DNA from: Thermoguttaceae bacterium | GTDB taxonomy: Bacteria; Planctomycetota; Planctomycetia; Pirellulales; Thermoguttaceae | Reading direction: 5' to 3' | NCBI GenBank assembly: GCA_017407125.1 | Contig: JAFQXE010000045.1 | Span: forward strand, 186,001 to 250,000 | DNA: 64,000 bases | Shown: positions 1 to 34,668 of the stretch, one piece after another | Layout: the number at the start of each line of letters is the position of its first letter | Numbering within the stretch: position 1 is the stretch's first letter | Translations under genes and position numbers: made by a program | Notes under the pieces: model-generated | What the model was told of the DNA's origin: nothing | Seen by the model: the letters and a program-made list of their open reading frames with translations, nothing else | Databases searched by the model: none

Positions 1-1595
1 GATGGAAGAATTTTTTGATTTGCGCTAGTTATAATCTTCCGCAGCGTTTTTTTCACGTTGGCTACAAATAACTTCCAATCGTCTATGATTTTTTCATCTG
101 GAGCTACAAGCAATTTGTTCTTATAAACCAATAGAATTTGATCTTTTGTCGTGTCATATCGCTGAGCACAATGTTCCATAAGGAACTCAAGCGCTTCCAG
201 AATGGTATTGCAGTCGGATCGTTCCGAAAGGTATTCCGCCCTCCATATTGGTTGTCCCGTTGCGAATGAAACTCCCTTTTGTCGGATTCGTCCAACAACA
301 GAACGTTTCCAATCTGTTATAGCGAACTCGCGTCCACGGCTTATTGGTTCAACATAAACCGAACATGCTTCAGAGCGCTTCCTTTTTTTGATATGTTTTT
401 TATTGTATTGCTCTATGTCCGGCTGAATGTTGTAGACAAGAGCTTCTGCTGAGCTTTCCCCATCCTGTTGTGATGTCGTCGGACTTTGTTCCGCTAGATC
501 ATGTTTCTGTGCAGGAGTGGAAACGGGCATAGAACTATTGTTTGCTGCTACACGCTTTTGCGAAGAATCTGATGTAGTATATTGAGCGCTGTTTTTGGGC
601 GCTAGGTTTGGGACTGTTGTACTTGCTACTTCAAATGGAGATTCTATTCTTGGGACTGGCGCATTTTTAACTACGGAACTCAATATTCCAACATTACCGT
701 CAAATGCCGGTAGAAGATTCAGTTCTCTATCGCTGCGCGTGCGCGGATCGACACCGGTTATTCCAAAATCAATCTTTGCAATATCCTCGTCTTTCCAAAT
801 TTCCAATATGGTGCAACGACAGTTCCACCCATTGGGTGGAAGATAGCGATTCCAAAAATTATCCTCTTTCGGCAATCGCACACCCTCAAGCAAACGATGC
901 TCCGGTCGTACCCGTTTGTCATGCGCGGTAACATACTCGAATCCCCATATATATGGCGCCGTTTCTGGGTCGTTTGCTTCGTTCAATCGACCGGCATTAT
1001 AAGCAACGGCGCTTTGTGTCCGGAATAACGTCTCCGCCAACCTCGGCGCGGCTGTGGGATCGATTCCTGCCCCTAACAGTATGTTTGTGATTTCCTTTTT
1101 ACCCCCCCGAACGTGAACTCCTTGTTCTTGCAAGTCTTCAATCGTTTTTTGAATTGTGTCAACAATCTCCTGAGTCAGTCCGTTGACAAGTTCGGCATTC
1201 TGTCGCTGGATAGCCGAATGCGCCGAGGTCGGGTCGATCCCACTAACACGCTGCAGATATTCGCTGGTGCCTTTTGCCTGCTCAATTCCCGAATCGCTTA
1301 AAGAAAAGCGAATAGGCATGATTTCTTTAACAGGCTCGTCTATAACCTTTTCAGCCGCCAACTGCCCGCGTCGCCCGCCCTTAAGAACGGCAACCTCCGT
1401 GTTGGCGTTCAAAAGAGCGAGCAGTTGATTTTGACATACCCTTTCTATCTCACCTGTATTGCCCGTTTTGATAGCTGTTAAGGTCAAATCCTGCAACAAC
1501 GAGATGAGCTTTTTTAATGGCAACTTGGTAGGCAACGCAATCGCCGTCAAGTCGCGCGTAACGGCTTTCTGGGCGGCTATTTTATCTTTTCGCAT
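1..1595 (-). CDS. Mu gpF-like minor head morphogenesis protein (3' end cut by window edge)
   Basis: I translated this open frame by hand; it starts at 1595 and runs off the left edge, so the C-terminus is missing. About residues 225-262 carry the hallmark of the SPP1 gp7/Mu gpF head morphogenesis family: RPEHRLLEG, then W, then PPNGWNCRC. Family members sit inside the capsid near the portal and act early in head assembly. The region before it is helical and contains RTQSAVAYNAGR, also typical of the family. The start overlaps the region just after the preceding gene's stop, with no clear ribosome binding site, so translation may be coupled. It lies some 13 kb from the portal gene, which is unusual. 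The C-terminal 250+ residues are unassigned. Confidence 0.8.
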   Translation of the reverse strand, partial: MRKDKIAAQKAVTRDLTAIALPTKLPLKKLISLLQDLTLTAIKTGNTGEIERVCQNQLLALLNANTEVAVLKGGRRGQLAAEKVIDEPVKEIMPIRFSLSDSGIEQAKGTSEYLQRVSGIDPTSAHSAIQRQNAELVNGLTQEIVDTIQKTIEDLQEQGVHVRGGKKEITNILLGAGIDPTAAPRLAETLFRTQSAVAYNAGRLNEANDPETAPYIWGFEYVTAHDKRVRPEHRLLEGVRLPKEDNFWNRYLPPNGWNCRCTILEIWKDEDIAKIDFGITGVDPRTRSDRELNLLPAFDGNVGILSSVVKNAPVPRIESPFEVASTTVPNLAPKNSAQYTTSDSSQKRVAANNSSMPVSTPAQKHDLAEQSPTTSQQDGESSAEALVYNIQPDIEQYNKKHIKKRKRSEACSVYVEPISRGREFAITDWKRSVVGRIRQKGVSFATGQPIWRAEYLSERSDCNTILEALEFLMEHCAQRYDTTKDQILLVYKNKLLVAPDEKIIDDWKLFVANVKKTLRKIITSANQKILP

Positions 1596-1604
1596 GATTA
1601 TAGG

Positions 1605-2087
1605 CTATGGGTGGAATCGCCCGTAGAACGGGTCGTCCTGCGAACAGAAAAACGGTCTCTGGCTGTTTTTACTGTTCGACGAATCTTCGTAAGGAACAAC
1701 GGTCGGAGCCGCCTGAGTACGCTCTCCTTTTAAGATGATTTCGCCACGACGAATCTTTCCAAGATATTCATCTACTTGTGTGCGAACCATTGACATTTTG
1801 TCCGCAGCAGAATCGCCGTCGATCATTTCTCGCGCATCATACAAATGCAGGGCTGCGATCTGCGCAATGAGTCTACGGATCGAGCTATCAATGATTACGT
1901 TATGATAGTTCCGTCCCCGCAATACTGTCTCAATATATGAAGATGCGGTCTGAATTGCAAAGTTGATTCTCTGTTGTATCTTGAAAGCGTCATCATCACC
2001 GTCCAAGTCCGCCCAGCGATTGATATTCGCTTTCCCAAATATCAACTCGAGCATATCTCGATTAACATAAATTCTTTCTTCGCTCAT
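1605..2087 (-). CDS. Mu gp36-like (DUF1320-type) head-tail connector candidate
   Basis: 160 residues. The middle part (about 45-115) has the pattern of DUF1320/Mu gp36-like proteins: helices with AIQTASSYIETVLRG, then IAALHLYDAR and a short charged C-terminal stretch. These proteins lie between head and tail genes and are probable neck or connector components. The gene overlaps the upstream gene by ATGA at 2084-2087 and directly precedes the gpF-like head gene, which supports a virion-assembly role. The assignment is by pattern, without an alignment. Confidence 0.5.
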   Translation of the reverse strand: MSEERIYVNRDMLELIFGKANINRWADLDGDDDAFKIQQRINFAIQTASSYIETVLRGRNYHNVIIDSSIRRLIAQIAALHLYDAREMIDGDSAADKMSMVRTQVDEYLGKIRRGEIILKGERTQAAPTVVPYEDSSNSKNSQRPFFCSQDDPFYGRFHP

Positions 2088-2485
2088 ATCGCTTTTACTT
2101 GAAATACCAAAGGAGAACAGATGTCGTTCAGATTACTGGCGACTGTAAATGTGATAATGACTTTATAAAAATGCCCCGCTGATTTAAACGGGCTTTCATC
2201 AACCGGCGGAATCCACTCAAAATTCCGGGTATATGTTTTCCCGGCATAAGTCTTTTCTGTAGGCTGAAACATTACAGAACGAACGGCAAGTGTCTTATTA
2301 TCATATCCTTCAACCTTCGACGCTTTTGCGCCGTTGAATTGACCGAGGTCATAAACGGTTACAGCAATCGCGGAAATGTCGTAGGGTGTAAAACTCGTAC
2401 CATCCAGTTTCCGCAAATTAGCAGTAAAAGCAGCTGTCGCTCCCGCCACAACTTGTCCTGTAGTAATGTTAGTTTGTGTACTCAT
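2084..2485 (-). CDS. Hypothetical structural protein, beta-rich
   Basis: 133 residues, rich in T, V and aromatic residues, with alternating hydrophobic strands and no signal peptide or membrane segment. The layout (lead segment, a strand-rich core with VTVYDLGQF, closing PLVFQVKAI) resembles small baseplate or neck accessory proteins, but I do not recognise a family. It is translationally coupled on both sides by 4-bp overlaps, inside the late structural block between fibre genes and gp36/gpF genes. Confidence 0.55.
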   Translation of the reverse strand: MSTQTNITTGQVVAGATAAFTANLRKLDGTSFTPYDISAIAVTVYDLGQFNGAKASKVEGYDNKTLAVRSVMFQPTEKTYAGKTYTRNFEWIPPVDESPFKSAGHFYKVIITFTVASNLNDICSPLVFQVKAI

Positions 2486-2565
2486 GAGAATATTAATGCT
2501 TGAGGGTCTAGTCCGGTTACAATGGACGCACTATGCGGATTTACAAATATATTTGAGTCGTTCAT
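2482..2565 (-). CDS. 27-residue micro-ORF coupled on both sides
   Basis: A tiny frame, ATG at 2565 to TGA at 2482-2484, encoding 27 residues starting MNDSNIFVNP. Its ATG overlaps the stop of the upstream gene (ATGA at 2562-2565) and its stop overlaps the ATG of the downstream gene (ATGA at 2482-2485). It fills the gap exactly, as real coupled genes do throughout this operon. The function is unknown; it may only carry ribosomes to the next gene. Confidence 0.55.
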   Translation of the reverse strand: MNDSNIFVNPHSASIVTGLDPQALIFS

Positions 2566-3014
2566 GGTCTGTTTGGTTCAATAATATCAGCAAGTATTGC
2601 TCCACCCGATCCGTTGGCGATCATTGCCGCCTGTTCTGGATCAATCGTTACCGTATCATGTTTTGGATCGAACGTACTGAAGCCGGTTGCCGTCTTCCAA
2701 TGCGCGTCTCCATACGCTTTCAGGGCTTCAAAATCAACAGTTGCCGTTCCACTTTGAATCTGCTCAGGCGACCATTGTTTCACGATAAGTTGCGCGCCCG
2801 GACACGTTATTTCAATCAATGCAAATTGGTCAACCTCCAACAACGTCTCTTCAACTGCGATTAAATAATATCCAGCCGAAAACTCTGTCGGAGTTGCATT
2901 GACAGTTACGAACTCGGCTCCGTCTTTACTGATTCTTACGGTTATGTTATCTGCCTGCTCCGTCAAAAACGTTCCATCGATTGACGAAAATAGCATAAAT
3001 GGAATCGCTTTCAT
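2562..3014 (-). CDS. Putative baseplate/fibre accessory protein
   Basis: 150 residues. The N-terminal half reads as a beta-sandwich (DNITVRISKDGAEF, then a GYYLIAVEE strand), like the short Ig-like or BppU-type N-terminal domains of receptor-binding accessory proteins. The C-terminal part has a trimer-like QSGTATVDFEALK segment. It overlaps the glycosyltransferase upstream by 4 bp. A structural role in the fibre cassette is inferred from context; no family is firmly recognised. Confidence 0.5.
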   Translation of the reverse strand: MKAIPFMLFSSIDGTFLTEQADNITVRISKDGAEFVTVNATPTEFSAGYYLIAVEETLLEVDQFALIEITCPGAQLIVKQWSPEQIQSGTATVDFEALKAYGDAHWKTATGFSTFDPKHDTVTIDPEQAAMIANGSGGAILADIIEPNRP

Positions 3015-4426
3015 TTTATTCTATCCTTTTTTGCGTTTAATGTTAGCCCAACCCAACTCTTCAACATAAGGTTATCCTGAGTATGGAGTGGATAAAAAAC
3101 TAAACTTTCTGGATTTGCATAGGAAGCCCATATCGAAAACGTCGAATTCGCAATGAACTTATACTTGCACTCCGCAAGTTTGTAAAAGTCGTTGACAGGG
3201 TCGCCAGTTACGATTTCTGCGTTCGGAAACAAAGCTTTTATATCCTCCGGAATTGTATCGTCATAAAAATCGGCGACAATCCGTATCGGCTTATTTAACA
3301 GTTTACACTTGCTGGCGACCTTATCGTAGTAATCTGTTTTACACAAGTCCCTCGCCCACGTCATATTTTCCCACTGCAAATAATCTCCACGGCGGAAATT
3401 AACGGCAATGATATCCTTTGTTTCTATCGGTCGAAATTTAATATATTTCCGCAGCGCTGGAAAGAAGCTGTTTCTATTTACGAAACCGCCTCCCAACGCT
3501 TGCATAAAAAATTCAGACTCACGTCGGCAAAAATGGTGCGTTCCGATTTCTTTTTGAATCAGGGTTTCTCCACACTCTTTTTCGGCGAAATCTCTCGTCG
3601 GCTGACCGTGAACAACCTTGTCGATGAAGTTTACCTTTACTCCCATTTCACGTAGCAAACGCCCGTAAGAAATAAAATAAAGATTGTTCCCTATGCCACC
3701 CTTGAGTGCAATATCAACTGTGAAGTCGCTCAAAGGTCGTTTAACATACTGAAGATAATCGGTCGGTTTTCCAATGACAATATTTCCGTGTAAGTCTTTA
3801 TAAGGAAATTCTGACGTGATTCCCCACCGGCGAATCTTATGCCGCAGGATATAAGAGTATCCTGAAAGCTGTCCTGCAAACATACCGACCGGCGAATACG
3901 CCGGATATTTTTTAAACAGCTTGGATATAACTTTGTCCCCGGCATCTTCCGACCACGGAATATCCTCTAGGATTTTCTTTACTTCCGGCACGACGGACGA
4001 ACGAATCAAAACACACTCATTTCCGAGTATTCCATACGTTCTCAATACGCCGGGTTTTATTTCTTCCGGTTGCCTGTAGTGGTATCCTCCGAAAAATATG
4101 AATCCCCAATCGTCTGGAACTCTATCCATAAATTGAGGGTACATTTCATCAAACAATGCGGAGAAGATAACATCGTCTTCCATAAGCAGCATATCGCTGT
4201 CTGGGGCAATTTCCATGTGATGCGCACAAAGTCGAATCTTACTTAAGTTGCATCTCCACGTCCCCTGTCGGCATTTTTTGTACACAGAGAATTGTGGTAT
4301 GGTTATTGGCTCGTTTCTCTCAACTCCGTAGAACACTTCCGGCTCCGGGAGACTGCTGGGATAACCAGCAATCTTCCCATTTTGCAGTCGGTTGCTCTCT
4401 TTGAGCGTTATTACATACGCTTTCAT
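3011..4426 (-). CDS. Two-domain glycosyltransferase: GT25-like + GT11 (alpha-1,2-fucosyltransferase-like)
   Basis: 471 residues. Residues 1 to about 230 look like glycosyltransferase family 25 (LPS-type): MKAYVITLKESNR at the start, a WRCNLSKIRLCAHH segment and an acidic LLMEDDV motif (EDD at 83-85) typical of the metal-binding site. From about 235 the protein matches family GT11: GGIGNNLYFISYGR, then VNFRRGDYLQW and a C-terminal ANSTFSIWASY, the three classical GT11 blocks. The gene lies inside the tail-fibre cassette, overlapping the next gene by 4 bp and following the fibre chaperone. It could glycosylate a virion protein or modify the host envelope. The fusion is seen directly; donor and acceptor sugars are unknown. 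Confidence 0.8.
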   Translation of the reverse strand: MKAYVITLKESNRLQNGKIAGYPSSLPEPEVFYGVERNEPITIPQFSVYKKCRQGTWRCNLSKIRLCAHHMEIAPDSDMLLMEDDVIFSALFDEMYPQFMDRVPDDWGFIFFGGYHYRQPEEIKPGVLRTYGILGNECVLIRSSVVPEVKKILEDIPWSEDAGDKVISKLFKKYPAYSPVGMFAGQLSGYSYILRHKIRRWGITSEFPYKDLHGNIVIGKPTDYLQYVKRPLSDFTVDIALKGGIGNNLYFISYGRLLREMGVKVNFIDKVVHGQPTRDFAEKECGETLIQKEIGTHHFCRRESEFFMQALGGGFVNRNSFFPALRKYIKFRPIETKDIIAVNFRRGDYLQWENMTWARDLCKTDYYDKVASKCKLLNKPIRIVADFYDDTIPEDIKALFPNAEIVTGDPVNDFYKLAECKYKFIANSTFSIWASYANPESLVFYPLHTQDNLMLKSWVGLTLNAKKDRIK

Positions 4427-4995
4427 TATGCGTCCTCTAACAATTTAATTTGAGCATTCAGTTCAGCAATGCGGCTGTTGACCTGACGAGTATATTCCGC
4501 AAACGTCATGGAAATTGTGGCGTATAACTGCAAAAATTCCTCATACGTAAACGACCGAGATGTCCCATCGTCCGAAGCAATATCGCACGGGAACATCTCT
4601 GTCATTTGATTCAGGTTAATCATCGCATTGTAAAATTCAAAAACCCAACGGGGGATATATCCCTTGCCGTCATACTGGACGGAGCCGTTGTTCTTGTAAT
4701 TGTCGCTATCGGCGTTCAATCGTGCAATTTCCTGTTTGCATTTTGCAATTATCATTCTCGGAGGGATATTCTGCACTTCCCATACGTCTTTAATGACACC
4801 ATTCTCAATGGTGTAACTATGTGAATATGTTTTGTTCTCATCCTCCAATGCCGGTGGCGACGATTCCTCGTATGGACAACCAATGCCAAGTTTGTCCAAC
4901 AGCTCATCTGACGGGTTGAAAACTGTTCGTCCTTCGACTTCTACTAAACGCACCGCTTCTTTTTGCTTCGTCTTCATGTTAAGAGTGTATCTCAT
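4426..4995 (-). CDS. Tail fibre assembly chaperone-like protein (DUF4376-like C-terminus)
   Basis: 189 residues. The N-terminal part describes a fibre-tip-like segment, and the C-terminal helical part (FTYEEFLQLYATISMTFAEY, then a coiled region ending QIKLLEDA) resembles the helical C-terminal domain found in many tail-fibre assembly proteins. It sits directly after the fibre gene ending at 5010 and shares a base with the glycosyltransferase start at 4426. Its role as a fibre chaperone is inferred from position and helix pattern. Confidence 0.5.
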   Translation of the reverse strand: MRYTLNMKTKQKEAVRLVEVEGRTVFNPSDELLDKLGIGCPYEESSPPALEDENKTYSHSYTIENGVIKDVWEVQNIPPRMIIAKCKQEIARLNADSDNYKNNGSVQYDGKGYIPRWVFEFYNAMINLNQMTEMFPCDIASDDGTSRSFTYEEFLQLYATISMTFAEYTRQVNSRIAELNAQIKLLEDA

Positions 4996-5009
4996 TTTCT
5001 CCTCCCAAT

Positions 5010-6365
5010 CTAACTCCCGTAACCATAACCATTGCCATAATAACCGTATCCGGAACCATAGCCATAATAACCGTATCCGGAACCATAGCCACCACTTTCA
5101 TTGTGTGGTTCTTCAACTCCTTTTCCTAGAATTGTGTACCGAACTCCCAATTGCACAAACTCCCAATCGTCGCGCATCCACATGCAAACGATTTTTCCGT
5201 TGTCATATCTTATATCTCCATTATAAAAAGGAGATCCCCAAACGCTCCCGCTTCCTTCCGTTACAAGATAGTCCATCAACGGTTGTCGTGCACATTTATA
5301 AGTTCCTGTATAACAGCTGTTTTTGCTCGCATACTGGATACATTGAATCTCCATCACCAAAGCCGTATATGCTCCAACTTTTATAATTTCGTATGATTGG
5401 TATGCTCTTGGTTTCCTGATGCAAATTCCTTTAAAACCTGTATGCCCAAATACCGGCTCGTCAGAATCGAGTAAAGTTTCTCCGTTGCCGTTCATCACAA
5501 CATTGTGAATCATCGCCTGCCCGATGTCGGAACTATATCCAGTACCTGCATAGACTCCGTATATTGGGTCGCCCTCTCTAGTTTGAGTTATTTTATCCCC
5601 GAAGATGTATGTCGATTCTCCTTCGGCGACGTTGTTCATTCCGAAAACGGCGCTAGTGTTCCCATTGATAGTATTGCCATAACCGAAGACCGCGCATCCA
5701 GATCCAATGCAAGTATTATTGCTTCCGGCTCCAAACGATTGTCCTCCGGATATCACATGAGAAGCGTCGTCTCTGTACATTTGCAAGTCAACCGCACCAT
5801 AACCTCTCGAACTTCCTTCAACGTATCCGGGATCAAGAGTAAATTCTGTCGAAGGTACAATGGCATTTCCTAACCTCTTTGTACCTGCATTTCCACTTCC
5901 ACCAGCTGCCGAAATGACTCCGGACTCGTTGATGTTAATAGTAGTTCCGTCAACCTTTACACTTCCCTGCTGGGTGGTTGACGCTTTTGGAACAGAAAGT
6001 AAACCAGTATTTGTTACTGACAGAGTTGCTCCGTCAACCATAACGCCACCAACCGTGCTGGTAGTTGCCTTTGGCAACGTGTACCCGTTTAGCACTTTCC
6101 ATTGCAGTATTGATCCGTTGCGCCCTCCATACGTTGCCTGCAAAAGCTGGTATGTATCGGTCGCAAAATATATCTTGTTGGTCAACGGGGTAATCAGATT
6201 AGTGATTTCTGAGTACGTTCCTGTAATCACATCTGACAGCTTGATTCGCTGCTGTCCCACGTCGACGTATGCATCTCCCGTGTCAGTCGTGACTATCAAA
6301 CTCCCGGCATCTACCGCCGGGAGGTTTGACTTCACGCTCATCTTGGGTTTTACTACTTCGCCCAT
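5010..6365 (-). CDS. Tail fibre / adhesin with beta-roll body and Gly-Tyr-rich tip
   Basis: 451 residues. The N-terminus (KMSVKSNLPAV) looks like a fibre attachment module. It is followed by repeated TTSTVGGVMVDG and STTQQGSVKVDG segments and a series of turns rich in G, N and S (GGQSFGAGSNNTCIGSG, FGYGNTINGN), resembling left-handed beta-roll adhesin heads. The last ~25 residues are almost only Gly, Tyr and Ser, formed by a 9-residue repeat. Glycine-rich tips are known receptor-binding loops in T-even gp38 adhesins; the parallel is an inference. This is the best host-recognition candidate in the window. Confidence 0.7.
   Translation of the reverse strand: MGEVVKPKMSVKSNLPAVDAGSLIVTTDTGDAYVDVGQQRIKLSDVITGTYSEITNLITPLTNKIYFATDTYQLLQATYGGRNGSILQWKVLNGYTLPKATTSTVGGVMVDGATLSVTNTGLLSVPKASTTQQGSVKVDGTTININESGVISAAGGSGNAGTKRLGNAIVPSTEFTLDPGYVEGSSRGYGAVDLQMYRDDASHVISGGQSFGAGSNNTCIGSGCAVFGYGNTINGNTSAVFGMNNVAEGESTYIFGDKITQTREGDPIYGVYAGTGYSSDIGQAMIHNVVMNGNGETLLDSDEPVFGHTGFKGICIRKPRAYQSYEIIKVGAYTALVMEIQCIQYASKNSCYTGTYKCARQPLMDYLVTEGSGSVWGSPFYNGDIRYDNGKIVCMWMRDDWEFVQLGVRYTILGKGVEEPHNESGGYGSGYGYYGYGSGYGYYGNGYGYGS
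5036..5092 (-). repeat. 27-bp tandem repeat coding the Gly-Tyr fibre tip
   Basis: The segment around TAACCGTATCCGGAACCATA occurs twice with a 27-bp period (start points 5041 and 5068), with a third degenerate piece toward the stop codon. It encodes nine residues (GSGYGYYGY type) in frame, so copy-number change would lengthen or shorten the fibre tip without a frameshift. Confidence 0.85.
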
Positions 6366-6426
6366 GATTTCGCCTTGTTTAAACTTTCGTATTCTGAATT
6401 ACATTCCAAATCTGTCCCGATTCCAA

Positions 6427-7224
6427 TTAGTCGCCGGATTCTCCAACGGACTCCCATTCCATCTTGTTCGTCAAGTCGTTGTAATCTCCAGTCGTCGCAA
6501 CCGTAGCCAGCGTCGCTGCGTCGGCTTTCGCCGCCAATGCGTTATAAATCGCTCCGCCGGTAACAGGGTTCGCTCCGTTTTCGGTAATTGCGTTGTCGAC
6601 AGTAACCGGGTTGACCGCCGCACTAATGCGAATCCAGTCAGTAACCGTACTATAGGTTCCATTCAGGATATAGCAGCCGTCGTTCGCGCCGTCGCCGTTG
6701 ACAATGGCGTAGTCGCCCTTTTCTGCAGTTGTCAAAGTTGTCAGTGCATTCTTGGTCGAAACCGTGCCAGCGTATTCCGTAATGGAAAGGGCAGGCATAA
6801 CGGAGTTGACAAGTTTTCCTCCACTGTCCAATACCGGGACATTGCCTTCGCTAGTACCGGTTTTCGGCAAAGCGTCGATTGCATCGTAGACGGCTTTGGC
6901 TGTCGGAACCTGACTATCTGTTGATGCATTCGACAATGCTGTTGTTACCGGCAATGCGATGGTTGCCCACGTCGAACCACTCCACGTTCGTGCCTCATAC
7001 GTCGCTGCTTTCACGTAGAGAGTCCCTTGTTCCTGATTCTGTTCAGGGAATTCTTCGACAACCTTAAACGGAGCGCCATAGACCTCTGCCGTATTGGTTC
7101 CGGTTGCTCGGTAAATCGTTCTGGAATCGCTGATGTAATACAGTGCTCCGGCGATTAAATTTCCACCAGCTTTTTTGACATCAAACTGGCTTTGAGTTCC
7201 TGTAAAAAATCTTACTGCTGCCAT
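6427..7224 (-). CDS. Tail fibre/collar structural protein
   Basis: 265 residues, starting MAAVRFFTGTQSQF, with a short domain (YYISDSRTIYRATGTN) common at the start of phage fibre proteins. It then has small repeats rich in A, T and V, including TDSQVPTAKAVYDAIDAL, the TAKAVYDAI module seen in many tail fibre stalks, which recurs in weaker form near the C-terminus (NPVTGGAIYNALAAKA). It lies between the coiled-coil fibre and the Gly-Tyr fibre, so these three probably form one appendage. Confidence 0.65.
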   Translation of the reverse strand: MAAVRFFTGTQSQFDVKKAGGNLIAGALYYISDSRTIYRATGTNTAEVYGAPFKVVEEFPEQNQEQGTLYVKAATYEARTWSGSTWATIALPVTTALSNASTDSQVPTAKAVYDAIDALPKTGTSEGNVPVLDSGGKLVNSVMPALSITEYAGTVSTKNALTTLTTAEKGDYAIVNGDGANDGCYILNGTYSTVTDWIRISAAVNPVTVDNAITENGANPVTGGAIYNALAAKADAATLATVATTGDYNDLTNKMEWESVGESGD

Positions 7225-7239
7225 TGGTAATTTTCCTCC

Positions 7240-8436
7240 TTATAAGCTTTCCCAATTTCCAACAATCGTATTATCACCATGCGTTTCACTCTGGTTGTCA
7301 GATGGAGTCGTGTTTCCGGTATCCCCCGTATTGCCATTTGCGCTGGCACTGAGGTGTTCCCAGTTCCCGATAGTATCTCCCCCCTGAGTTCCGCCAAAGA
7401 TTGACGCCACATCACTAATTATTTGCTCTGAGCGGTCAGCTCTGCTTTCTAAACTGGAAAGCCTGCCGTTGATTTCGGCATGTTCGTTTCCGGCGTTGGT
7501 AACCGCCACGTTGACCTTGTTTGTTATTTCTTCAGACATTTCTTCCTTTGCCTCTCCCACCGCCGTTTCGATAGCGGAGTTCATTGTTTCCGTGATATTT
7601 CCTATAGCCGTTTCTATGGCGGTATTGGTATGTTCCGTCATGGCTTCCTGCGATGCCGAAATAGCGTCCGATATGGCGGTTTCAATATTTGTGGCGCATT
7701 CACTCTTTGCCGCATCTATGGCTGCCGACATACTTTCGTTGCACTCTTCTTTCGCGCTTGAAATAGCTTCACTTATGGAGGTGTTGACCGTTTCCAGCAC
7801 TTCCGTTTTCGCCGTGCTGATTGCCGTATTGGTCTGCTCCGAGATTGTTTCCTTCGCCGCTTCAATGGCGTTGTTAACCGTGTTGCTGACGGTTTCCTGC
7901 TGTTGCTCAAGTATGGTTTCAATCCGGTTATCAACCGTTTCTTCAATCGACGCCCGCACTTCGCTCACGGCTCCGTTGACAGTTGTATTGATAGCGTCCT
8001 GCACGTCCACGATTGCCGTGTCGATTGCCTCGTCAATACGGGAACCTATGGCGTTGTTGACGGTTGTATTGATGCCTGACAATACTTCCTCTGTTACCTC
8101 CGACTTGGTCGTTTCCATTGCGGATTCGACAGCCGGTGCAACGGCAGCCTCCACGGCTGGCGCAAGTGATTCGTTCAGGGCGGAACTGACAGCGTCGTCA
8201 ATAGCGTCTCCAAACGCATCCTGAATGGCAGGCACCACCGCAGCATTGACTCGCTCTTCGATATTGGTTCCGATGACGTCATTGACAGCGGGAGCAACCG
8301 CAGCGAGTACAGCTTCGTTAACGACACTCTCTATTCCATCGAGCTTTCGCTTGTCCGCAGCGCTCATAAGTCCATCGCGATCCTGCGTTGCCGGATTAAT
8401 GATTTGTGTCGGTTTTGTTAGATCTGAGAATGCCAT
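7240..8436 (-). CDS. Long coiled-coil tail fibre shaft protein
   Basis: 398 residues. After a short N-terminal head (QIINPATQDRDGLMSAADKRKL, a motif frequent in phage fibres), residues ~40-330 form an almost uninterrupted Ala/Glu/Ile/Thr-rich coiled coil. In the second half the repeat alternates between 15 and 19 residues (NTAISTAK, NTSISEAI, SAAIDAAK, ETAISDAI, NTAIETAI, NSAIETAV), a pentadecad-like period rather than plain heptads. The C-terminal ~50 residues are Gly/Asn/Thr-rich with two short GNWE repeats. It probably forms a trimeric rod. Confidence 0.75.
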   Translation of the reverse strand: MAFSDLTKPTQIINPATQDRDGLMSAADKRKLDGIESVVNEAVLAAVAPAVNDVIGTNIEERVNAAVVPAIQDAFGDAIDDAVSSALNESLAPAVEAAVAPAVESAMETTKSEVTEEVLSGINTTVNNAIGSRIDEAIDTAIVDVQDAINTTVNGAVSEVRASIEETVDNRIETILEQQQETVSNTVNNAIEAAKETISEQTNTAISTAKTEVLETVNTSISEAISSAKEECNESMSAAIDAAKSECATNIETAISDAISASQEAMTEHTNTAIETAIGNITETMNSAIETAVGEAKEEMSEEITNKVNVAVTNAGNEHAEINGRLSSLESRADRSEQIISDVASIFGGTQGGDTIGNWEHLSASANGNTGDTGNTTPSDNQSETHGDNTIVGNWESL

Positions 8437-8647
8437 TTTTAGTTGATCCTGCCAGTTCTTTTATCTCGTCGTGAATGTCATCCGTTTTTTTTTCCAGTGA
8501 ATCAAGCTTCTTGTCAAACTTGACCAGAAAAAAGTAAACCACCACCGCAACGATTGTCAGCGGAGTTACGCTTTCAATCCAGCTATTTGATACCTGTGCG
8601 CACATGAAGCATACCAGCCCCGTTGCACCGACGATAGCATTATCCAT
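8396..8647 (-). CDS. Small membrane protein, holin candidate
   Basis: 83 residues. A hydrophobic segment at about 27-42 (LTIVAVVVYFFLV), and a weaker one before it, is followed by a charged helix (KFDKKLDSLEKKTDDIHDEIKEL), the usual plan of small phage holins. It overlaps the start of the fibre shaft gene by 41 bp and lies near the peptidase and secreted-protein genes. The lysis role is inferred from topology and context. Confidence 0.5.
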   Translation of the reverse strand: MDNAIVGATGLVCFMCAQVSNSWIESVTPLTIVAVVVYFFLVKFDKKLDSLEKKTDDIHDEIKELAGSTKNGILRSNKTDTNH

Positions 8648-8652
8648 TTGTG

Positions 8653-9423
8653 CTACCTCCTTGCATCCTTTAACCTAAGTTTGGCAATAGCAACGTAGTT
8701 CTCATTCAGCTCCATCCCTATAAAATGTCGCTTCGTTTCTGCGCATGCTACCGCAGTTGTCCCACTTCCCATAAAGGGGTCTAACACTATATCCCCTTCA
8801 TTTGTCCACGATAAAATATGGTCTCGCGCTAGGGCAATTGGGAACTGAGCGGGGTGGCTCGTTCTCTCCCGTTTATCAAAGAACGGGCTGACGTTCCAAA
8901 TATTGTAGCGCTTCCCAAACTCTTTTACTCGCTTGCGCACTTGGCGCACAGTCGTTCCATCTGCTTTTCTAAAGCTCCCACAAGTTCTATCTCCACAGCT
9001 CTTGTTTCGTCTGTCGCAAAGCAGATTTGTCGTTTTCGGCTTACCCTTGCTGAAGACAAACATATAGTCAAAGGAAGGTATGTATCGTGTCTTGCTGTTT
9101 CTGAAACCTCCGTTTTGCTTATTCCAAATCATTGTGTCGTGCAAATTGAAACCTACCTCTTTTGCGTATAACGCCTGCTTGAACGACGTGCCGGTTTCGC
9201 TTCCGTTGTCAGATGCGTCGTTGACAATCCAAACAACCACGCCCCCGTCTTTCGTTATGCGGTACAGTTGACGCAGGGCGTTTTGCCATTGCTCTTCGCC
9301 CCATTGCACTTTTCCCTCATACGTTCTCAAGTCGTCGTATGGCGGGCTTGTGATTGTTGCGTCTATACTGTTGTCGGAAATTGTCTGCATAAGTTCCAGA
9401 CAATCCCCACACATCAATTTCAT
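8653..9423 (-). CDS. DNA methyltransferase (SPPY class, probably N4-cytosine)
   Basis: 256 residues. The catalytic motif is TSPPYDD at residues 25-31; SPPY is typical of N4-cytosine (and some N6-adenine) amino-methyltransferases. Near the C-terminus is DPFMGSGTT, the SAM-binding motif, giving a beta-class order (catalytic motif before SAM motif). It shares 4 bp with the upstream peptidase gene, within the late operon. A stand-alone phage methylase of this kind usually protects virion DNA from host restriction. Its target sequence cannot be read from the gene. Confidence 0.85.
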   Translation of the reverse strand: MKLMCGDCLELMQTISDNSIDATITSPPYDDLRTYEGKVQWGEEQWQNALRQLYRITKDGGVVVWIVNDASDNGSETGTSFKQALYAKEVGFNLHDTMIWNKQNGGFRNSKTRYIPSFDYMFVFSKGKPKTTNLLCDRRNKSCGDRTCGSFRKADGTTVRQVRKRVKEFGKRYNIWNVSPFFDKRERTSHPAQFPIALARDHILSWTNEGDIVLDPFMGSGTTAVACAETKRHFIGMELNENYVAIAKLRLKDARR

Positions 9424-10430
9424 TCACGACCTCCATGCGGGTTCAGGTTAGTATCCTGTTCGTTGACCGGACGCTCCGTATATGTCAAAGGCATGATGTC
9501 GGAGAACCGCCCGGACAGGTATCGAACCAAACCTGACTTTGTGATGTACGCCCCAAAGCCCGGTATGTCGGTATTGGAACGATAAATCAGTCCATGACTG
9601 TTGACGATGTAAACATACTCGGTTTCGCCGACCTTGCGGTAGTCGATAGCCGACGTACAATGTCCGCCTCCCCAACCGCCGCCGACGTCGGTAATCGTCA
9701 TACCGTTGGAGTCTTGACGCGTGCCGTCCCGCAATGCAATATCGTTTCCGATAACAACCGGGTGTCCGGCGCGCAAGGACAGGATGATAATCTCTGCCAA
9801 TTCCTCTGCTCTACGATCCCCAACGTAGCAGAAACCTGTCTGGTTCTTTTCGGCTGTTGTTTGGGCGTTGATAATCGCAGTCGTAAAAGACGTGCCACCG
9901 TTGTATTCTCCGACCTCCGAAACGGGGAAGTTGCCAATCTCGCACGCCGCTTTTGCAATTGAGTAAATTGTACGCCCGTTGTCGGCGAAGCGACGCCCAG
10001 AAACCGGCGAATCACCGGAGCTAAACGCATAGATTCCCGTTGGGTTGTACGCCTCCACACGCCGCTCAGCGCCAAACCAGTATTGGTTCAGCGCCATTAC
10101 CTCCGCCGCACGGGTTGTACCCCACGCTGCGCAGTCGTTGCGCTGTTGGGTTGTCCCGCACAGTTGCGTGAACGTTTTACCACTACCGTTTTCGCAAATC
10201 TTCCACGGCTCTGGGAATTGGTTGATGTTCCGGAGGGCGTCTCTCGTTGCGGCTTCTTCTTTCAGCCAGTCAGTCCAGTCTTTCGACCACTCGATAATCC
10301 GGGGAGTATCATTGACGTTCCACGGAGCAATCAAGGATTCGATTACTTCCTCGTCCGATTTCAGACCGGCGGCTCTCGCCATTGCAGCCTGCTCATAGGA
10401 CGGTATGCAACCAAGTAAGCGTTCACTCAT
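9420..10430 (-). CDS. Papain-like (C1-fold) cysteine peptidase, lysis or virion enzyme candidate
   Basis: 336 residues. The expected papain-fold signatures are present in order: QRNDCAAW with Cys100 as nucleophile and the preceding Gln, GGGHCTSAIDY with His257, and VYIVNSHG with Asn277. Known members of this fold in phages include peptidases that cut structural proteins or peptidoglycan cross-links. It lacks a signal peptide and a recognisable cell-wall-binding domain. It sits between a secreted protein and the DNA methylase, near the holin candidate, so an endolysin role is possible but not shown. Confidence 0.6.
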   Translation of the reverse strand: MSERLLGCIPSYEQAAMARAAGLKSDEEVIESLIAPWNVNDTPRIIEWSKDWTDWLKEEAATRDALRNINQFPEPWKICENGSGKTFTQLCGTTQQRNDCAAWGTTRAAEVMALNQYWFGAERRVEAYNPTGIYAFSSGDSPVSGRRFADNGRTIYSIAKAACEIGNFPVSEVGEYNGGTSFTTAIINAQTTAEKNQTGFCYVGDRRAEELAEIIILSLRAGHPVVIGNDIALRDGTRQDSNGMTITDVGGGWGGGHCTSAIDYRKVGETEYVYIVNSHGLIYRSNTDIPGFGAYITKSGLVRYLSGRFSDIMPLTYTERPVNEQDTNLNPHGGRE

Positions 10431-10436
10431 GATTAT

Positions 10437-11297
10437 TTACCTCCAAAAAAATCCTCCACGTTGTATGACCTGTCCCGGCTGATTGGGACATTGACCGTTC
10501 GGACAGTTGTTCGTCGGTTTCGGCGTTTCCGCCGATTTTTCTTCGGCGGATTTTCCCGACTCGGTCGGCTCGTCGGCGCCGACACGCGCCACCGCATTGG
10601 CTTTGAGGGCTTCGGCAATTACGGCGTAGTCCCGCTTTATGGTTTCCAGACTGGTATTGTCGATACACGCCGAGAGTTCTTCAATCCACCCGCCCATCGT
10701 CTTTATGGCTTGCGGGTCAACTTCGGCAGCATTAGCAATCCAGATAGACCTGAATGTTTCACGCGCCGCAACGACAGTCGTTACCGTTCCCCGGTCAATA
10801 CCGCTTTTAACCGATGCAAAGGTTGCAGCTAACGCTTGAACGTTCTTTGCCGGGTAGACCGTCGCCTTTTCCAGTGCCAGTTCCAACGGGGTCTTTTCTG
10901 GCTCCGGTGGCGGAGTCGGTTTTGGCGGGTCGGGCGTCGGGGTAGGGTCGATAGGATCGGGCGTCGGCATTGGCAGTCCGTTGTACAAAACGTGCTGGCT
11001 CAATACCACTTTTCCTTCTTCAATGGTCGCTGCGATAATTGTAACCTCGCCTTTGACCGGGCTGGCAAACACACACGTCATACCTCCGTCGGCAACGTAT
11101 ATCGCCGTCTGGTATTGCACGGGGTATACCGTCCATGTGGCTTCCGTGTCGCTGTGGGCGACCGCCAACTGTCCGGCGTCGATGCACTTGGGGGCAGTGA
11201 TCGCGGCTTGCGCCAACGCCGATACGAGCGCCATGTAAATCGCTGTCGCAATCGCAACGAACAACACTCGTCTTAACAAGTCTTTACTGATGCGCAT
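10437..11297 (-). CDS. Secreted/periplasmic hypothetical protein with Pro-rich linker
   Basis: 286 residues. The N-terminus is a good signal peptide (charged RISKDLLRR, then VLFVAIATAIYMALVSALAQA with an AQA-type cleavage site near residue 32). A small beta-like domain follows, then a proline-threonine linker (residues ~112-134, PTPDP repeats) and a helical C-terminal domain. The start at 11297 has a CAGGAG site upstream. It lies in the lysis neighbourhood and might act in the periplasm, for example as a spanin-like or envelope factor, but no family is recognised. Confidence 0.6.
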   Translation of the reverse strand: MRISKDLLRRVLFVAIATAIYMALVSALAQAAITAPKCIDAGQLAVAHSDTEATWTVYPVQYQTAIYVADGGMTCVFASPVKGEVTIIAATIEEGKVVLSQHVLYNGLPMPTPDPIDPTPTPDPPKPTPPPEPEKTPLELALEKATVYPAKNVQALAATFASVKSGIDRGTVTTVVAARETFRSIWIANAAEVDPQAIKTMGGWIEELSACIDNTSLETIKRDYAVIAEALKANAVARVGADEPTESGKSAEEKSAETPKPTNNCPNGQCPNQPGQVIQRGGFFWR

Positions 11298-11346
11298 GAT
11301 CTACTCCTGTTCTTTGCTAAACTACCAACAATGCACTCATGTGATG

Positions 11347-11940
11347 TTAGTTTTCAAAAGTTCCAAACCATAATTTATAATTGTCACTTCCGGGCTGTAT
11401 GACTTTAACAATTTCTAACGCTTTGTCGCAGTAATTAGCAAACTTTCCTGAAAGTTGCTTAAACTGTCTTACATCACTCGGCGAAATGTGAGTAATCGCC
11501 ATCCACTGGTCTTCGACACTCTTTGGAGCAGTTGCGATTTTTTTAAGAACTCTGCCTGAAATATGAAAGCTTGATGTAACTGCTCCAAAACCCGTTCTTG
11601 GGGCTTTATAATATTGTTCTAATGAACTTGGAGCAGGGTTTCCTGTTTTCGCAACAGTTCTCAGTATTTTTATGACTTCCGAACCATTTTTAATGCCAAA
11701 ATCAATTGCTTTCGGCATAACGACAAATGATTCCCAGTCCCAGCCGCCCTGTATATAGGTTGTATTTCCATAGAAGTCAAACTGACGGTCGACGATTCTA
11801 TACCACGTATTATAAACAGGTTTTATCTGGTTACAAACGTTATAAAAGTCTTCCCAATACGGCAGGTATTTTTTCGCATTTGCCTGATATTCATTCTCGA
11901 ACCTCACATCAAAGTTTGGTTTTTCCAATGGAACCAACAT
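11347..11940 (-). CDS. Hypothetical protein with PLEKPNF leader (paralogue set)
   Basis: 197 residues from the ATG at 11940, which has GAGGAG upstream; a longer frame upstream is not supported. It opens MLVPLEKPNFDVRF, the short N-terminal signature shared with the products ending at 12479 and 13213. The rest is a helical domain with many aromatic residues and no family I recognise. Being part of a run of small genes between portal and lysis genes, it may be a virion-associated protein. Confidence 0.6.
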   Translation of the reverse strand: MLVPLEKPNFDVRFENEYQANAKKYLPYWEDFYNVCNQIKPVYNTWYRIVDRQFDFYGNTTYIQGGWDWESFVVMPKAIDFGIKNGSEVIKILRTVAKTGNPAPSSLEQYYKAPRTGFGAVTSSFHISGRVLKKIATAPKSVEDQWMAITHISPSDVRQFKQLSGKFANYCDKALEIVKVIQPGSDNYKLWFGTFEN

Positions 11941-12044
11941 AATCGATCTCCTCTCTCGCAACTGCAATTCCCAGCAGAATCGTGCGAGCGCTGTTGTCTG
12001 CTGGACTTTGCACTGTCTGTCCTGTCTATCCTTTCGACGCAATA

Positions 12045-12461
12045 TTATTTCTGGCTCTTCCACCAATCGTACAGAATCGGAATGATGATTTCCAGCAGTT
12101 CAATGATTTGCAACATCGACGGCATGGCGCAGGTGACCTGTTCACCGTCCGAAACGAAGTCCAGATTGTCAGCCAGATCTTTCAGTGTCGCTTCCGGGGC
12201 GGCTTTGCAAATCGACAGGTTGAACATGGCGTCGGCATACTTCCACGTCCAATCGAACATCTTTTTCAGGTTGTCGTCGGCGATCATACGCTCGACAATC
12301 GTGTATGCCCAATCGTCCACGCCAGTTTCGGTTGTCTGCACCTGTTCCTGCAACAGCGCGAGGAAACGGTCACGTGCGCCCTGTACGTTTTCAAACGTAA
12401 AGGTCTTCTGAGCAAATTCTTGAACTGCGCTCAGCAACAGTTTCTGAAGTAATGATTTCAT
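12045..12461 (-). CDS. Hypothetical helical protein with hydrophobic C-terminus
   Basis: 138 residues, start at 12461 with AAGGAG upstream. Mostly helical; the C-terminus IIELLEIIIPILYDWWKSQK is strongly hydrophobic and could be membrane-associated or an amphipathic helix. It does not carry the PLEKP leader of its neighbours. No family is recognised; a lysis accessory or virion role is possible from context only. Confidence 0.55.
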   Translation of the reverse strand: MKSLLQKLLLSAVQEFAQKTFTFENVQGARDRFLALLQEQVQTTETGVDDWAYTIVERMIADDNLKKMFDWTWKYADAMFNLSICKAAPEATLKDLADNLDFVSDGEQVTCAMPSMLQIIELLEIIIPILYDWWKSQK

Positions 12462-12478
12462 TTTTTTCTCCTTGTTAG

Positions 12479-12838
12479 TTATTTTTCCTCGATAGGATAT
12501 TTTGGGGCATACGTTGCCACAAGAAACACGAGGTCATGATTGCGATTGAAATAACAACGCATAAATTTAAATTGCTCGTACCCGTGAGCATTTAACTCCC
12601 TTTCCTGTCCGTATTTGTCGATGTAATAAGTATGAACTTCAACTTGGACGTGTCTATGATTAAATATGTCTGTTTCAAAGTTATGTCTACGAAGCCATTC
12701 TTCTCCAAATCTTCTCCATTCTCTTTCAGTCATATTGCGGTTCGACATTCGGAGTTGTCTATCAAGACCATTAGCGTTAAAGTCCACATTTGTCCCGAAG
12801 CGCAAGCTAAAGTCCGGCTTTTCTAACGGAAATAGCAT
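12479..12838 (-). CDS. Hypothetical protein with PLEKPDF leader (paralogue set)
   Basis: 119 residues, start at 12838 with AAAGGAGG upstream. It begins MLFPLEKPDFSLRFG, matching the leader at 11940 and 13740. The following domain is highly charged and aromatic (NMTEREWRRFGEEWLRRHNF) and unrelated in sequence to the other members, so only the leader is shared. This suggests the leader is a targeting or interaction tag. Confidence 0.6.
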   Translation of the reverse strand: MLFPLEKPDFSLRFGTNVDFNANGLDRQLRMSNRNMTEREWRRFGEEWLRRHNFETDIFNHRHVQVEVHTYYIDKYGQERELNAHGYEQFKFMRCYFNRNHDLVFLVATYAPKYPIEEK

Positions 12839-12849
12839 CTTTTCCTCCT

Positions 12850-13200
12850 TTATTCCAAATATTTGATGTTATCGCTATCGCTTTCCAAATATCTCACAAG
12901 CTGAATCAGCGCAGACCGCCAACCGTTGCAGTTGATTTTCTCGTTGCACAAGAAGTTATACGCTCTTTCGTCGTCACTCTTGTAGGCGTCCTTTTGACCT
13001 GCATCCGCAACCTTTTCTGCTCTTTCCGCCAGTCGTGCCATTTCCATTGCGCCTCGAACAACTCTTTGAATGTCCGATAACAATACTTGTCGTTTCTGCA
13101 AAAGCTGTTTTTTCATCGTTTCATACTCCGCCTGCGAATTGCTTGCAAACCGCACATCTTTGTTAAAATACCGTTTCGCGCTGTTCAGGTCAAACAACAT
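12850..13200 (-). CDS. Hypothetical helical protein with divergent leader
   Basis: 116 residues, start at 13200 with AGGAGG upstream. Its N-terminus (MLFDLNSAKRYFNKDVRF) ends in the same VRF element as the PLEKP leaders but is otherwise divergent. The rest is a long helical, probably coiled-coil, stretch (YETMKKQLLQKRQVLLSDIQ). It belongs to the same run of small genes after the portal. Function unknown. Confidence 0.55.
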   Translation of the reverse strand: MLFDLNSAKRYFNKDVRFASNSQAEYETMKKQLLQKRQVLLSDIQRVVRGAMEMARLAERAEKVADAGQKDAYKSDDERAYNFLCNEKINCNGWRSALIQLVRYLESDSDNIKYLE

Positions 13201-13212
13201 GGTTACCTCCTG

Positions 13213-13740
13213 TTATTGATTGCATACGGCTTCGTACTCTTTAACCAGTTTTGTCCGTTGGTCGTTATACGCACGTACAACCTTATCAGACAAGCTACGG
13301 CATTCTTGCATGAGTTTATACATGAAAGCCGTTGGTCTTTTCACTTTTCTCAGGAAACTTTCTATTGCATCAAAGACATCTAATATGCTCTCAAGTGCAT
13401 ACTCTGTCTCATTGAGATACATTCTAAAGTCGCCTTTCAGACGGGAAACATTATCGCCTTTGCTTGTCCGAATTGCTCCGATAATCTTCTCCGCCCGGTT
13501 AAAATTGTCTATCAGACTCTTATGGCTAGTATCAAAGCGTAGCCTCTTGAGTGTGAACATCAGTTCAGACACGTCCCTCCACGGTTCGTTGTCGATTTTC
13601 GAGTCCGGGAGATTGTATACACGATCGTTTTCCTTTTGCAGATTTTCAATCATGTTCTTCAGGATGTCGTATGTTCGATTGATGTCAGGCAAGCCACCGA
13701 AACGAATACCGAAATTTGGTTTCTCTAATGGCATGAGCAT
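13213..13740 (-). CDS. Hypothetical helical protein with PLEKPNF leader (paralogue set)
   Basis: 175 residues, start at 13740 with GGAGG upstream. It opens MLMPLEKPNFGIRFG, the best form of the shared leader, followed by a mostly helical domain rich in K, R, N and D (ILKNMIENLQKENDRVY). The domain differs from those of its siblings. The start overlaps the end of the NrdD-tail minigene, so the two are translationally coupled. Confidence 0.6.
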   Translation of the reverse strand: MLMPLEKPNFGIRFGGLPDINRTYDILKNMIENLQKENDRVYNLPDSKIDNEPWRDVSELMFTLKRLRFDTSHKSLIDNFNRAEKIIGAIRTSKGDNVSRLKGDFRMYLNETEYALESILDVFDAIESFLRKVKRPTAFMYKLMQECRSLSDKVVRAYNDQRTKLVKEYEAVCNQ

Positions 13741-13907
13741 GTTTTGTTTCCTCCTACATTAAACGTTTTCCTATCTTTGAATTCCTCCACTTTGCCCCTG
13801 TTCCAGTTCGCCACCGGTCTGAAGTAACCACAGACCCGGCTGTAAACTTCGCAATCGGCGCCACACGTATTTTCTGTTTCGTTTGTATGGATTCTAACGT
13901 CTGTCAT
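13725..13907 (-). CDS. Stand-alone glycyl-radical C-terminal domain of anaerobic ribonucleotide reductase (NrdD-like)
   Basis: 60 residues, start at 13907 with AAAGGAGA upstream. Residues 20-46 (EVYSRVCGYFRPVANWNRGK, then EEFKDR) match the C-terminal end of class III ribonucleotide reductases. RVCGY holds the glycine (Gly27) that carries the radical in NrdD. Cysteines at 15, 19, 26, 57 and 59 could form a metal site, as the NrdD tail has a zinc site. No catalytic NrdD body or NrdG activase is present. By analogy with GrcA/YfiD for pyruvate formate-lyase, it may replace an oxygen-damaged NrdD tail; that role is inference. The family match itself is strong. Confidence 0.8.
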   Translation of the reverse strand: MTDVRIHTNETENTCGADCEVYSRVCGYFRPVANWNRGKVEEFKDRKTFNVGGNKTCSCH

Positions 13908-13955
13908 GGATTCTCCTTTCGATTTAATACTCCGCCGTTACTTTCTAAAATCCGA

Positions 13956-14612
13956 TTAGTATTTGTCCGTGTTCTGTCTGACCTTGTCTAAATCTTTCCA
14001 CGTTTTAAAAGACAGGTCGTATGCCGCAACAAGGTTTTCCATAATTTTGTCTAACTTCGCAATAAGCTCTTTTGTGTATGGATTTGCTGCTTTGCGTCTT
14101 TGAAAAGCCTTCGCATTTTGAATTGCAACATCGTAAAGTTTTCGCACTTTAATTGATTCTGTTTCCGCAAAGCCTAGTGCTTGAGCTACTTTTTCAAGTT
14201 CGGGTTCGTTGCCGAATCTCACACCTCTGTAATGTTTCATGCTGTAGCGGATTCCGAAGCTTCTGCCGTTCATATATGCTGTCAGTGCTTCGTATGCGTC
14301 ATGCAGACATTTCGGATCACTTCCGAGGTATGCTGTTTTTGCATTCCTTTGCCATGCGTCCAAAGTCGGAGCGACCTGTGATAAGTAATGGCATACCTTC
14401 AGCATCTTGGCTGTCGGTTCTCCACGCCGTTTAGCTTCCTCCACCATCCGATACAGATCTCTTGGCATCGGCTCAAACCGGACTTGCCCGCCGGTCTGAA
14501 GACAACGCTTATATAAGTCCCGGTATGATTTAAATACCCGTTGGGCTTTTTCCACAAACTCTTCGTAGCCAAACCGAACGTTGCGGGAGTATGCTTTTCT
14601 AAGTTTTGACAT
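13956..14612 (-). CDS. Hypothetical helical protein with NVRFGYEE leader
   Basis: 218 residues, start at 14612 with a GAAAGGA site. The N-terminus (SKLRKAYSRNVRFGYEEF) shares the VRFG element of the leader set. A duplicate of this element occurs inside the protein (YRGVRFGNEPELEKVAQ, about residue 128), so the protein looks like two tandem units, each starting with VRFG followed by a helical domain. No family recognised; likely a virion-linked accessory protein. Confidence 0.6.
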   Translation of the reverse strand: MSKLRKAYSRNVRFGYEEFVEKAQRVFKSYRDLYKRCLQTGGQVRFEPMPRDLYRMVEEAKRRGEPTAKMLKVCHYLSQVAPTLDAWQRNAKTAYLGSDPKCLHDAYEALTAYMNGRSFGIRYSMKHYRGVRFGNEPELEKVAQALGFAETESIKVRKLYDVAIQNAKAFQRRKAANPYTKELIAKLDKIMENLVAAYDLSFKTWKDLDKVRQNTDKY

Positions 14613-14728
14613 GCTCTTTTCCTTTCACTTGTTGTTTGCACGTTGGGCTTACCCTGCCCTCCACGTTCCCATTCTCCTATAACCGTAGCGAGCGGGTGCG
14701 GCTTTGTGCGGGCAACGTCGGGGCTTGT

Positions 14729-15034
14729 TCACGCCCCTCTGCACCTTTTATTTGTTTTGGGAGTCAAACGATTACAACACTTTAACTCTTCCTTCATTCT
14801 CTCCATGCAGTTCTTTAACGTTTTATAGGCAACTGCCGCGCACGTTGGAACTTGTGCATTTCCCGTTGCCGACAGCCGTTTTCGGCGAAAGTCGCACTCT
14901 TCGATTATCCGGGGTATGCCCCGTTCTTCGACGTCCCACAACTGACCGGCAGCAATCGAGTCCAGCCAATCGGGAATCCCATCAACCACTCGACCCAGTC
15001 GGGATTTTTGATTCCGCGTCCTTCTTACACTCAC
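14729..15034 (-). pseudogene. C-terminal remnant of a C5-cytosine DNA methyltransferase
   Basis: An open frame of 101 residues that aligns by eye only with the C-terminal end of phage C5-cytosine methyltransferases: RLGRVVDGIPDWLD, then RRKRLSATGNAQVP, which corresponds to motif X. The catalytic Cys (PC motif), the ENV motif and the N-terminal SAM-binding motif are all absent. The best start is a GTG at 15034 with no ribosome binding site. I interpret it as the stub left after deletion of the N-terminal part, just after the portal gene. A functional small protein or split-enzyme half is a less likely alternative. Confidence 0.6.
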
Positions 15035-15048
15035 AGTGGGCGTTGTGT

Positions 15049-18314: not shown

Positions 18315-18338
18315 TTTCTCTGTCTTTTAATTTTCACA

Positions 18339-19562: not shown

Positions 19563-19623
19563 TTTCTTACTCCTTTGTATTTAAACCTTCGTTTTTTGTA
19601 AAAGTTAATAGGTGAGAGCTTTT

Positions 19624-34471: not shown

Positions 34472-34668
34472 TGTTTCTCCTCGTTTTGCGAGTTTTCTTT
34501 CAGCGCAATGTACGTAGCCCATTTTGCAATGGGGTCTGCAACTCTTTTTTGTAATTCTTGTTCCAGTCCGGGGTGTTCGCCGATTTTGAAAAATACTTCC
34601 ACGATCGACAACGCAGCTATCAGCGATGATTGAATGTCTCTCAAAGCTCGTTCTTCTTTTTCTCTCAT
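34468..34668 (-). CDS. Small helical hypothetical protein
   Basis: 66 residues, highly charged start and a helical hydrophobic middle (SSLIAALSIVEVFFKIG). It overlaps the methylase gene start by 4 bp. No family recognised. Confidence 0.5.
   Translation of the reverse strand: MREKEERALRDIQSSLIAALSIVEVFFKIGEHPGLEQELQKRVADPIAKWATYIALKENSQNEEKQ

Follow-up and report, generated by a model that had tools for sequence, protein, structure and literature searches.

A GT25-GT11-like fusion gene in a conserved fibre-linked slot of a planctomycete prophage, with a predicted role in fibre glycosylation

INTRODUCTION

What would a phage do with an enzyme that joins two glycosyltransferase-like domains in one chain and is encoded beside a fibre gene? 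The question is raised by a gene in the window analysed here, a stretch of 64,000 nucleotides that covers bases 186001-250000 of a 453-kb contig from the 4.44-Mb genome of a Thermoguttaceae bacterium (Planctomycetota, Pirellulales). To our knowledge, there are very few phages whose own enzymes have been shown to glycosylate the virion.

The open reading frames of the contig, judged by eye, are of ordinary chromosomal types to the left of about 163.5 kb and to the right of about 251 kb. Since chromosomal-type genes stand on both flanks, the region is, on its gene content, a prophage of roughly 85-90 kb integrated in the Thermoguttaceae genome.

RESULTS

A fusion gene within a structural operon

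The gene and the features that bear on it are as follows.

3011..4426, minus strand (start 4426, stop 3011): GT25-GT11 fusion gene, a single open reading frame of 471 aa
3741..4426, minus strand: GT25-like GT-A domain, about residues 1-225/228, from homology to 10 slot relatives, PDB profile matches and fold
3014..3742, minus strand: GT11-like GT-B domain, about residues 226/229-471, from PF01531, a GT-B model and residue comparison
5010..6365, minus strand: fibre protein of 451 aa, proposed acceptor, from alignment with slot fibres and a family search
5010..5091, minus strand: low-complexity fibre tail GYGSGYGYYGYGSGYGYYGNGYGYGS, proposed glycosylation site with a putative acceptor role
4426..4995, minus strand: 189-aa protein between fibre and enzyme, no Pfam and no significant PHROG match
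2562..3014, minus strand: 150-aa protein downstream of the enzyme, short local similarity to post-enzyme genes elsewhere
1605..2087, minus strand: Mu gp36-like head-tail adaptor, PF07030 at 28.5 bits and PHROG head-tail adaptor
9420..10430, minus strand: gene upstream of the cassette, with homologs on the upstream side of the enzyme in five of the other loci compared

The fusion gene is one uninterrupted frame without internal stops. At its 5' end the start codon shares bases with the stop codon of the gene before it (TAATG), and at its 3' end the stop codon does so with the start codon of the gene after it (ATGA). Since the gene overlaps both neighbours, it is very probably translated together with the rest of the structural operon, and the Mu gp36-like adaptor likewise places the cassette within a virion operon. 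No Rfam families were found at window positions 1-20000.

The flanking genes had been called a fibre chaperone and a fibre accessory gene in the initial annotation, names for which we found no basis, as both lack a Pfam match and a PHROG match beyond chance. Homologs of the 189-aa protein were absent from the related cassettes compared, and the similarity of the 150-aa protein to genes elsewhere amounts to 58% over 31 aa with locus L034 and 64% over 22 aa with L039. Further upstream, the window genes at 9420-10430 and 10437-11297 have homologs that likewise stand upstream in several related loci, which indicates that these loci belong to one phage group. The related cassettes come from metagenome-assembled genomes of Thermoguttaceae, Planctomycetia or uncultured planctomycetes, several of them from goat colon or water-deer rectum.

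The same annotation spoke of a tail-fibre cassette. That it is a fibre cassette stands, whereas the word tail does not follow from the surrounding genes, which are of head and head-tail connector types. The window cassette is followed by Mu gp36-like and Mu F-like genes; the L033 cassette has a head decoration protein on one side and connector or tail genes on the other; and the window fibre itself resembles a head-and-packaging family, if weakly (E 0.013). With this gene order a tail fibre is not established, and a head fibre appears as likely as a tail fibre.

The N-terminal half is GT25-like by relatives and fold

The proposed two-domain architecture is borne out by the single frame, by a Pfam match of the GT11 half and by the relatives and fold of the GT25 half. 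A phmmer search of the PDB with the full fusion protein gave no match, and single-protein queries of IMG/VR and of genome contigs returned no relatives of it, so that an alignment-based search was needed. The two domains were modelled separately, as single-domain predictions.

Against PF01755, the N-terminal domain alone scored 12.4 bits, under the curated cut-off of 24, and for this reason we name it GT25-like. Its closest relative (L004/L031b, blastp E 5.5e-33) itself scores 25.9 bits against the same family, over the cut-off, and PF01755 is matched at E <= 0.1 by 10 of the 11 relatives. When a profile of these relatives was searched against the PDB, it retrieved COLGALT1 and mimivirus R655; the model of the domain (pLDDT 88) resembles the same two proteins, with Z 17.6 for COLGALT1 and Z 16.1 for R655, the closest viral fold. 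The LMEDD motif is intact, with an invariant EDD at residues 83-85, and W107, D164 and Q186 are retained, so that the domain has both the acidic metal-binding EDD motif and the predicted GT25 fold. Taken by its relatives and its modelled fold, this is a GT25-like domain that Pfam alone misses. It sits on a long branch in the tree.

The C-terminal half is a divergent GT11-like domain

PF01531 (Glyco_transf_11) matches the C-terminal half at 37.6 bits (cut-off 23.9, E 2e-9, residues 335-438). A profile search with each domain, which had been suggested as a check on the annotation, thus recognised the GT11 half and fell below threshold for GT25. An AlphaFold2 model of the C-terminal domain (pLDDT 81) has the GT-B fold of GDP-fucose-using enzymes, with POFUT1 (Z 10.7) and NodZ (Z 10.1) ahead and heptosyltransferases just behind (Z 9.4-9.8); the nearest viral models are phage Fut1/Fut2-like proteins.

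Residues were compared in an alignment with 46 viral GT11s, using domain numbering. GGxGN, R117, R118, GDY, DD at 161-162, NSxFSxW and P218 are retained, while Q23 is replaced by F, Q89 by N, Y93 by F, S160 by Y and W204 by I. The family motif HxRRGDY reads NFRRGDY, an asparagine standing for the histidine with RRGDY kept, and this replacement led us to the name GT11-like. The domain is shortened and is without the WF motif and the QSEKYF segment, yet its nucleotide-side core is preserved despite the lost family positions. This half is a genuine GT11-like domain, though a divergent one. The statement that both active-site signatures are intact therefore survives for the LMEDD of the GT25 half and fails for the GT11 half, where the motif histidine and several near-invariant positions are gone. 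The long branch and low Pfam score of the first domain, together with the positions lost from the second, make it possible that the activity of the enzyme is reduced or altered. One locus initially counted as a GT11 relative, L122 (G002), was dropped as its GT11 match proved spurious.

A fucosylated product had also been suggested. GDP-mannose 4,6-dehydratase is present in the host, but no GDP-fucose synthase ortholog was found in four genomes of the host genus; one is present in another genus of the family. The search used the E. coli protein as its probe, and good matches in relatives show that this probe works. Nor was a fucose salvage enzyme found in the host genome, which is 87% complete. 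With no GDP-fucose synthase detected in the genus, fucose appears doubtful as the sugar of the GT11-like domain, and a fucosylated glycan is not supported. In L033, a MobA-like nucleotidyltransferase gene (9550-10176) lies directly behind the GT25 gene and possibly makes a donor sugar nucleotide.

The enzyme occupies a conserved slot beside one fibre family

To place the gene among its relatives, we ran two profiles, one for the GT25 domain and one for the fibre at 5010-6365, against 119 genomes of the family. The 11 strongest GT25 matches (E < 1e-70) coincide in place with fibre matches, and in these genomes the fibre family was found only beside glycosyltransferase genes. GT25 lies directly downstream of the fibre in 10 of 11 cases, the window having one extra gene between the two. 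The eleventh fibre, in L114 (G056:C107), is short, and the gene in its slot (7395-7991) is like GT29 (sialyltransferase), at 33.7 bits over a cut-off of 23. The same fibre-enzyme cassette is present on an IMG/VR contig, L061. In the tree, the slot GT25s form one clade (support 99/94), to which the GT25-sulfotransferase fusions found repeatedly in Pirellulales genomes do not belong.

Second domains vary between slot enzymes: GT11 in the window, another in L029 and none in most. L029, a sister phage in the same host genus, has GT25 fused to a second domain (10691-11428) with no Pfam match and no PDB sequence match; a DVDN stretch in it may represent a DxD motif. In L031 two GT25 genes stand in tandem, and the window domain is sister to the second of them (97/95).

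The exact GT25-GT11 fusion was seen nowhere else: no match spanning both domains was found in the 119 family genomes or in 396 genomes of the order, and no second fusion was found in 80 viral GT11 loci. In 10 of these 80 loci a GT11 gene and a GT25 gene stand next to each other, overlapping or abutting but never fused, a count in which some of the GT25s were in the profile used, although five also match an independent slot profile at about 1e-13 or better. In two viral contigs, single proteins carry GT2, GT11 and GT10 domains in a row (L171, 4158-6626; L180, 3924-6335).

The fibres end in biased, variable tails

Past the last conserved motif, the fibres end in a variable low-complexity tail. 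In the window this tail consists of GYGSGYGYYG repeats that arise from a 27-bp tandem repeat at 5027-5091, and elsewhere it takes the form of twelve serines (L029), SYNSGSYSGSYYGS (L033) or SSESAPYYSSSSSDYSS (L036). Counted over the final 15 residues, the share of serine, tyrosine, glycine and asparagine reaches 60% or more in 8 of 10 core fibres and in 2 of 271 other genes, a comparison in which the residue set was picked after the tails had been seen, the fibre bodies themselves are 33-45% in these residues, and L040/L041 and L038/L061 are near-duplicate cassettes of close relatives. The two weaker tails are those of L034 (47%) and L041 (53%). By the same measure, the fibre tail is the richest of all same-strand genes in all ten core cassettes.

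In L118 (G054:C7), a fibre-like gene (8244-9002) that stands beside a divergent slot GT25 has a Cys-rich tail, SDDGTCCNPCCS, in place of a Ser/Tyr one. The theme of a Ser-rich tail beside a glycosyltransferase gene recurs in an unrelated phage from this host genus, L030 (G001:C242; 7256-11523), which has matches to tape-measure and neck proteins; there, a tail-region gene with a Ser-rich end, PSSSSGSSSSSSESHHSSHTESSSSDSSSGS, is followed by a Stealth-domain gene and then by a GT25-sulfotransferase fusion.

DISCUSSION

We lean, if only slightly, towards the reading that this is a late enzyme of a temperate phage, bifunctional and cytosolic, which glycosylates the phage's own fibre. Action on the fibre, which the initial annotation had raised, is the best-supported reading, given the slot in 10 of 11 related fibre loci and the Ser/Tyr-rich fibre tails; the enzyme is encoded in the virion operon beside its proposed acceptor. 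The coupled enzyme would add sugars to the tail of the newly made fibre while it is still in the cytoplasm, and assembly of the particle would follow with the fibres already sugared. The GT25-like domain would add the first sugar, from a UDP-hexose donor, to a Ser or Tyr of the fibre, with the exposed, low-complexity C-terminal end of the protein at 5010-6365 as the likeliest site. We assign it the first step since it is the constant part of the slot and its nearest folds act on protein side chains. The GT11-like domain, as the exchangeable part of the slot enzyme, would extend this first sugar by a second, with a GDP-sugar or another NDP-sugar as donor and fucose not required. Because in related phages GT25 stands on its own or is joined to a different partner, the sugars added would vary between phages. 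We offer more tentatively the wider idea that a group of planctomycete prophages has a dedicated slot in which a constant GT25-like domain primes Ser/Tyr in a disordered tail and an exchangeable second enzyme (GT11, the L029 domain and, once, a GT29-like protein in place of the whole unit) sets the glycan, with domain swapping as the source of varied surface sugars among phages.

The same gene could instead serve to alter a glycan of the host cell surface, late in infection or in the lysogen, in the style of serotype conversion, and so block superinfection or stop new virions from sticking to debris. Enzymes of LPS and O-antigen synthesis do occur in both the GT25 and the GT11 families, and a related architecture, the GT25-sulfotransferase fusion, is common across Pirellulales genomes. 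A review statement in PMC12619734 also has it that temperate phages change host serotypes by means of glycosyltransferases. We nevertheless consider a host-surface target unlikely, as the gene lies inside a late virion operon with overlapping neighbours rather than in a separate lysogenic-conversion locus, its slot is bound to one fibre family, and among the ten proteins scanned at 1605-9423 there is no GtrA/GtrB-type membrane partner (flippase, bactoprenol transferase) as in a gtrABC cluster. Less probable again is an acceptor that is neither virion nor cell surface: viral glycosyltransferases do hypermodify DNA (Pyle 2024, as cited in PMC12619734) and DNA methyltransferase genes lie within the window, but the conserved place beside a structural gene, away from DNA-metabolism genes, and closest solved folds that act on proteins or glycans make phage DNA or another small acceptor a very remote prospect.

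A further question is whether both domains work. The GT25 domain alone might be active, with the GT11-like part a decayed or non-catalytic add-on such as a binding module or dimerisation part. The lost histidine, Q23, W204, WF motif and QSEKYF segment, the shortening, the absence of a second domain in most relatives and the missing GDP-fucose synthase in the four genomes of the genus would all fit with this. However, GGxGN, RRGDY, DD, NSxFSxW and P218 have all been kept, although at this divergence their loss would be expected from a dead domain, and the reading frame is intact, so we regard an inactive second domain as improbable.

Acting on the fibre, the fusion enzyme would work like known cases of viral self-glycosylation, and we claim no membership for it in the mycobacteriophage, PBCV-1 or mimivirus systems. 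In mycobacteriophages, phage-encoded glycosyltransferases and glycans at the C-termini of structural proteins offer a close likeness (Freeman et al. 2023, as described in PMC12619734); there the acceptors are capsid and tail-tube proteins, the hosts belong to an unrelated phylum and the glycan has been shown, where ours is predicted, and the account consulted describes neither a GT25-GT11 fusion nor a fibre slot. The multidomain A111/114R of chlorovirus PBCV-1 likewise combines several glycosyltransferase domains, among them galactosyl- and fucosyltransferase-like ones, and has a virion-protein target (PMC7826918). Compared here by description only, it differs in that it belongs to a eukaryotic virus, has three domains and acts on the N-glycan of the major capsid protein. 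Mimivirus R655/R699 are also virus-encoded enzymes tied to fibrous viral proteins (PMC9546862), with collagen acceptors and a lysyl hydroxylation partner by way of difference; the activity of R655 was not measured in that work. Nearer to the host, the Pirellulales GT25-sulfotransferase fusions share an N-terminal GT25 domain joined to a second enzyme domain, and some lie in phage loci, but they form a separate GT25 clade, have another partner and are mostly outside the fibre slot. The GT2-GT11-GT10 proteins of L171 and L180 similarly place GT11 within a multidomain phage glycosyltransferase, with other partner domains and in other phages.

Two things are new here, the fusion of GT25 with GT11 and, in planctomycete phages, a conserved fibre-enzyme slot whose domains are exchangeable; the function proposed for them is a prediction. 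If that prediction holds, the fibre-plus-enzyme slot would provide a sequence rule by which to predict glycosylated phage fibres, together with a named acceptor segment, and viral self-glycosylation, as seen in giant viruses and mycobacteriophages, would extend to phages of gut planctomycetes.

Other features of the window

Elsewhere in the window, a DNA methyltransferase gene (Pfam N6_N4_Mtase) lies at 8653-9423, and open reading frames at 18339-19562 and 33713-34522 look by eye like DNA methyltransferases, one of them with a ParB-like N-terminus. Between 24040 and 48770 there are many small open reading frames with a zinc-ribbon-like PCPFCGG motif, which by eye have the look of Lar-type restriction-alleviation proteins. 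Short tandem-repeat arrays with units of 10-32 bp, of the CCGCGCCTTGCCCGA type, stand at 41954-42309 and 46465-46743.
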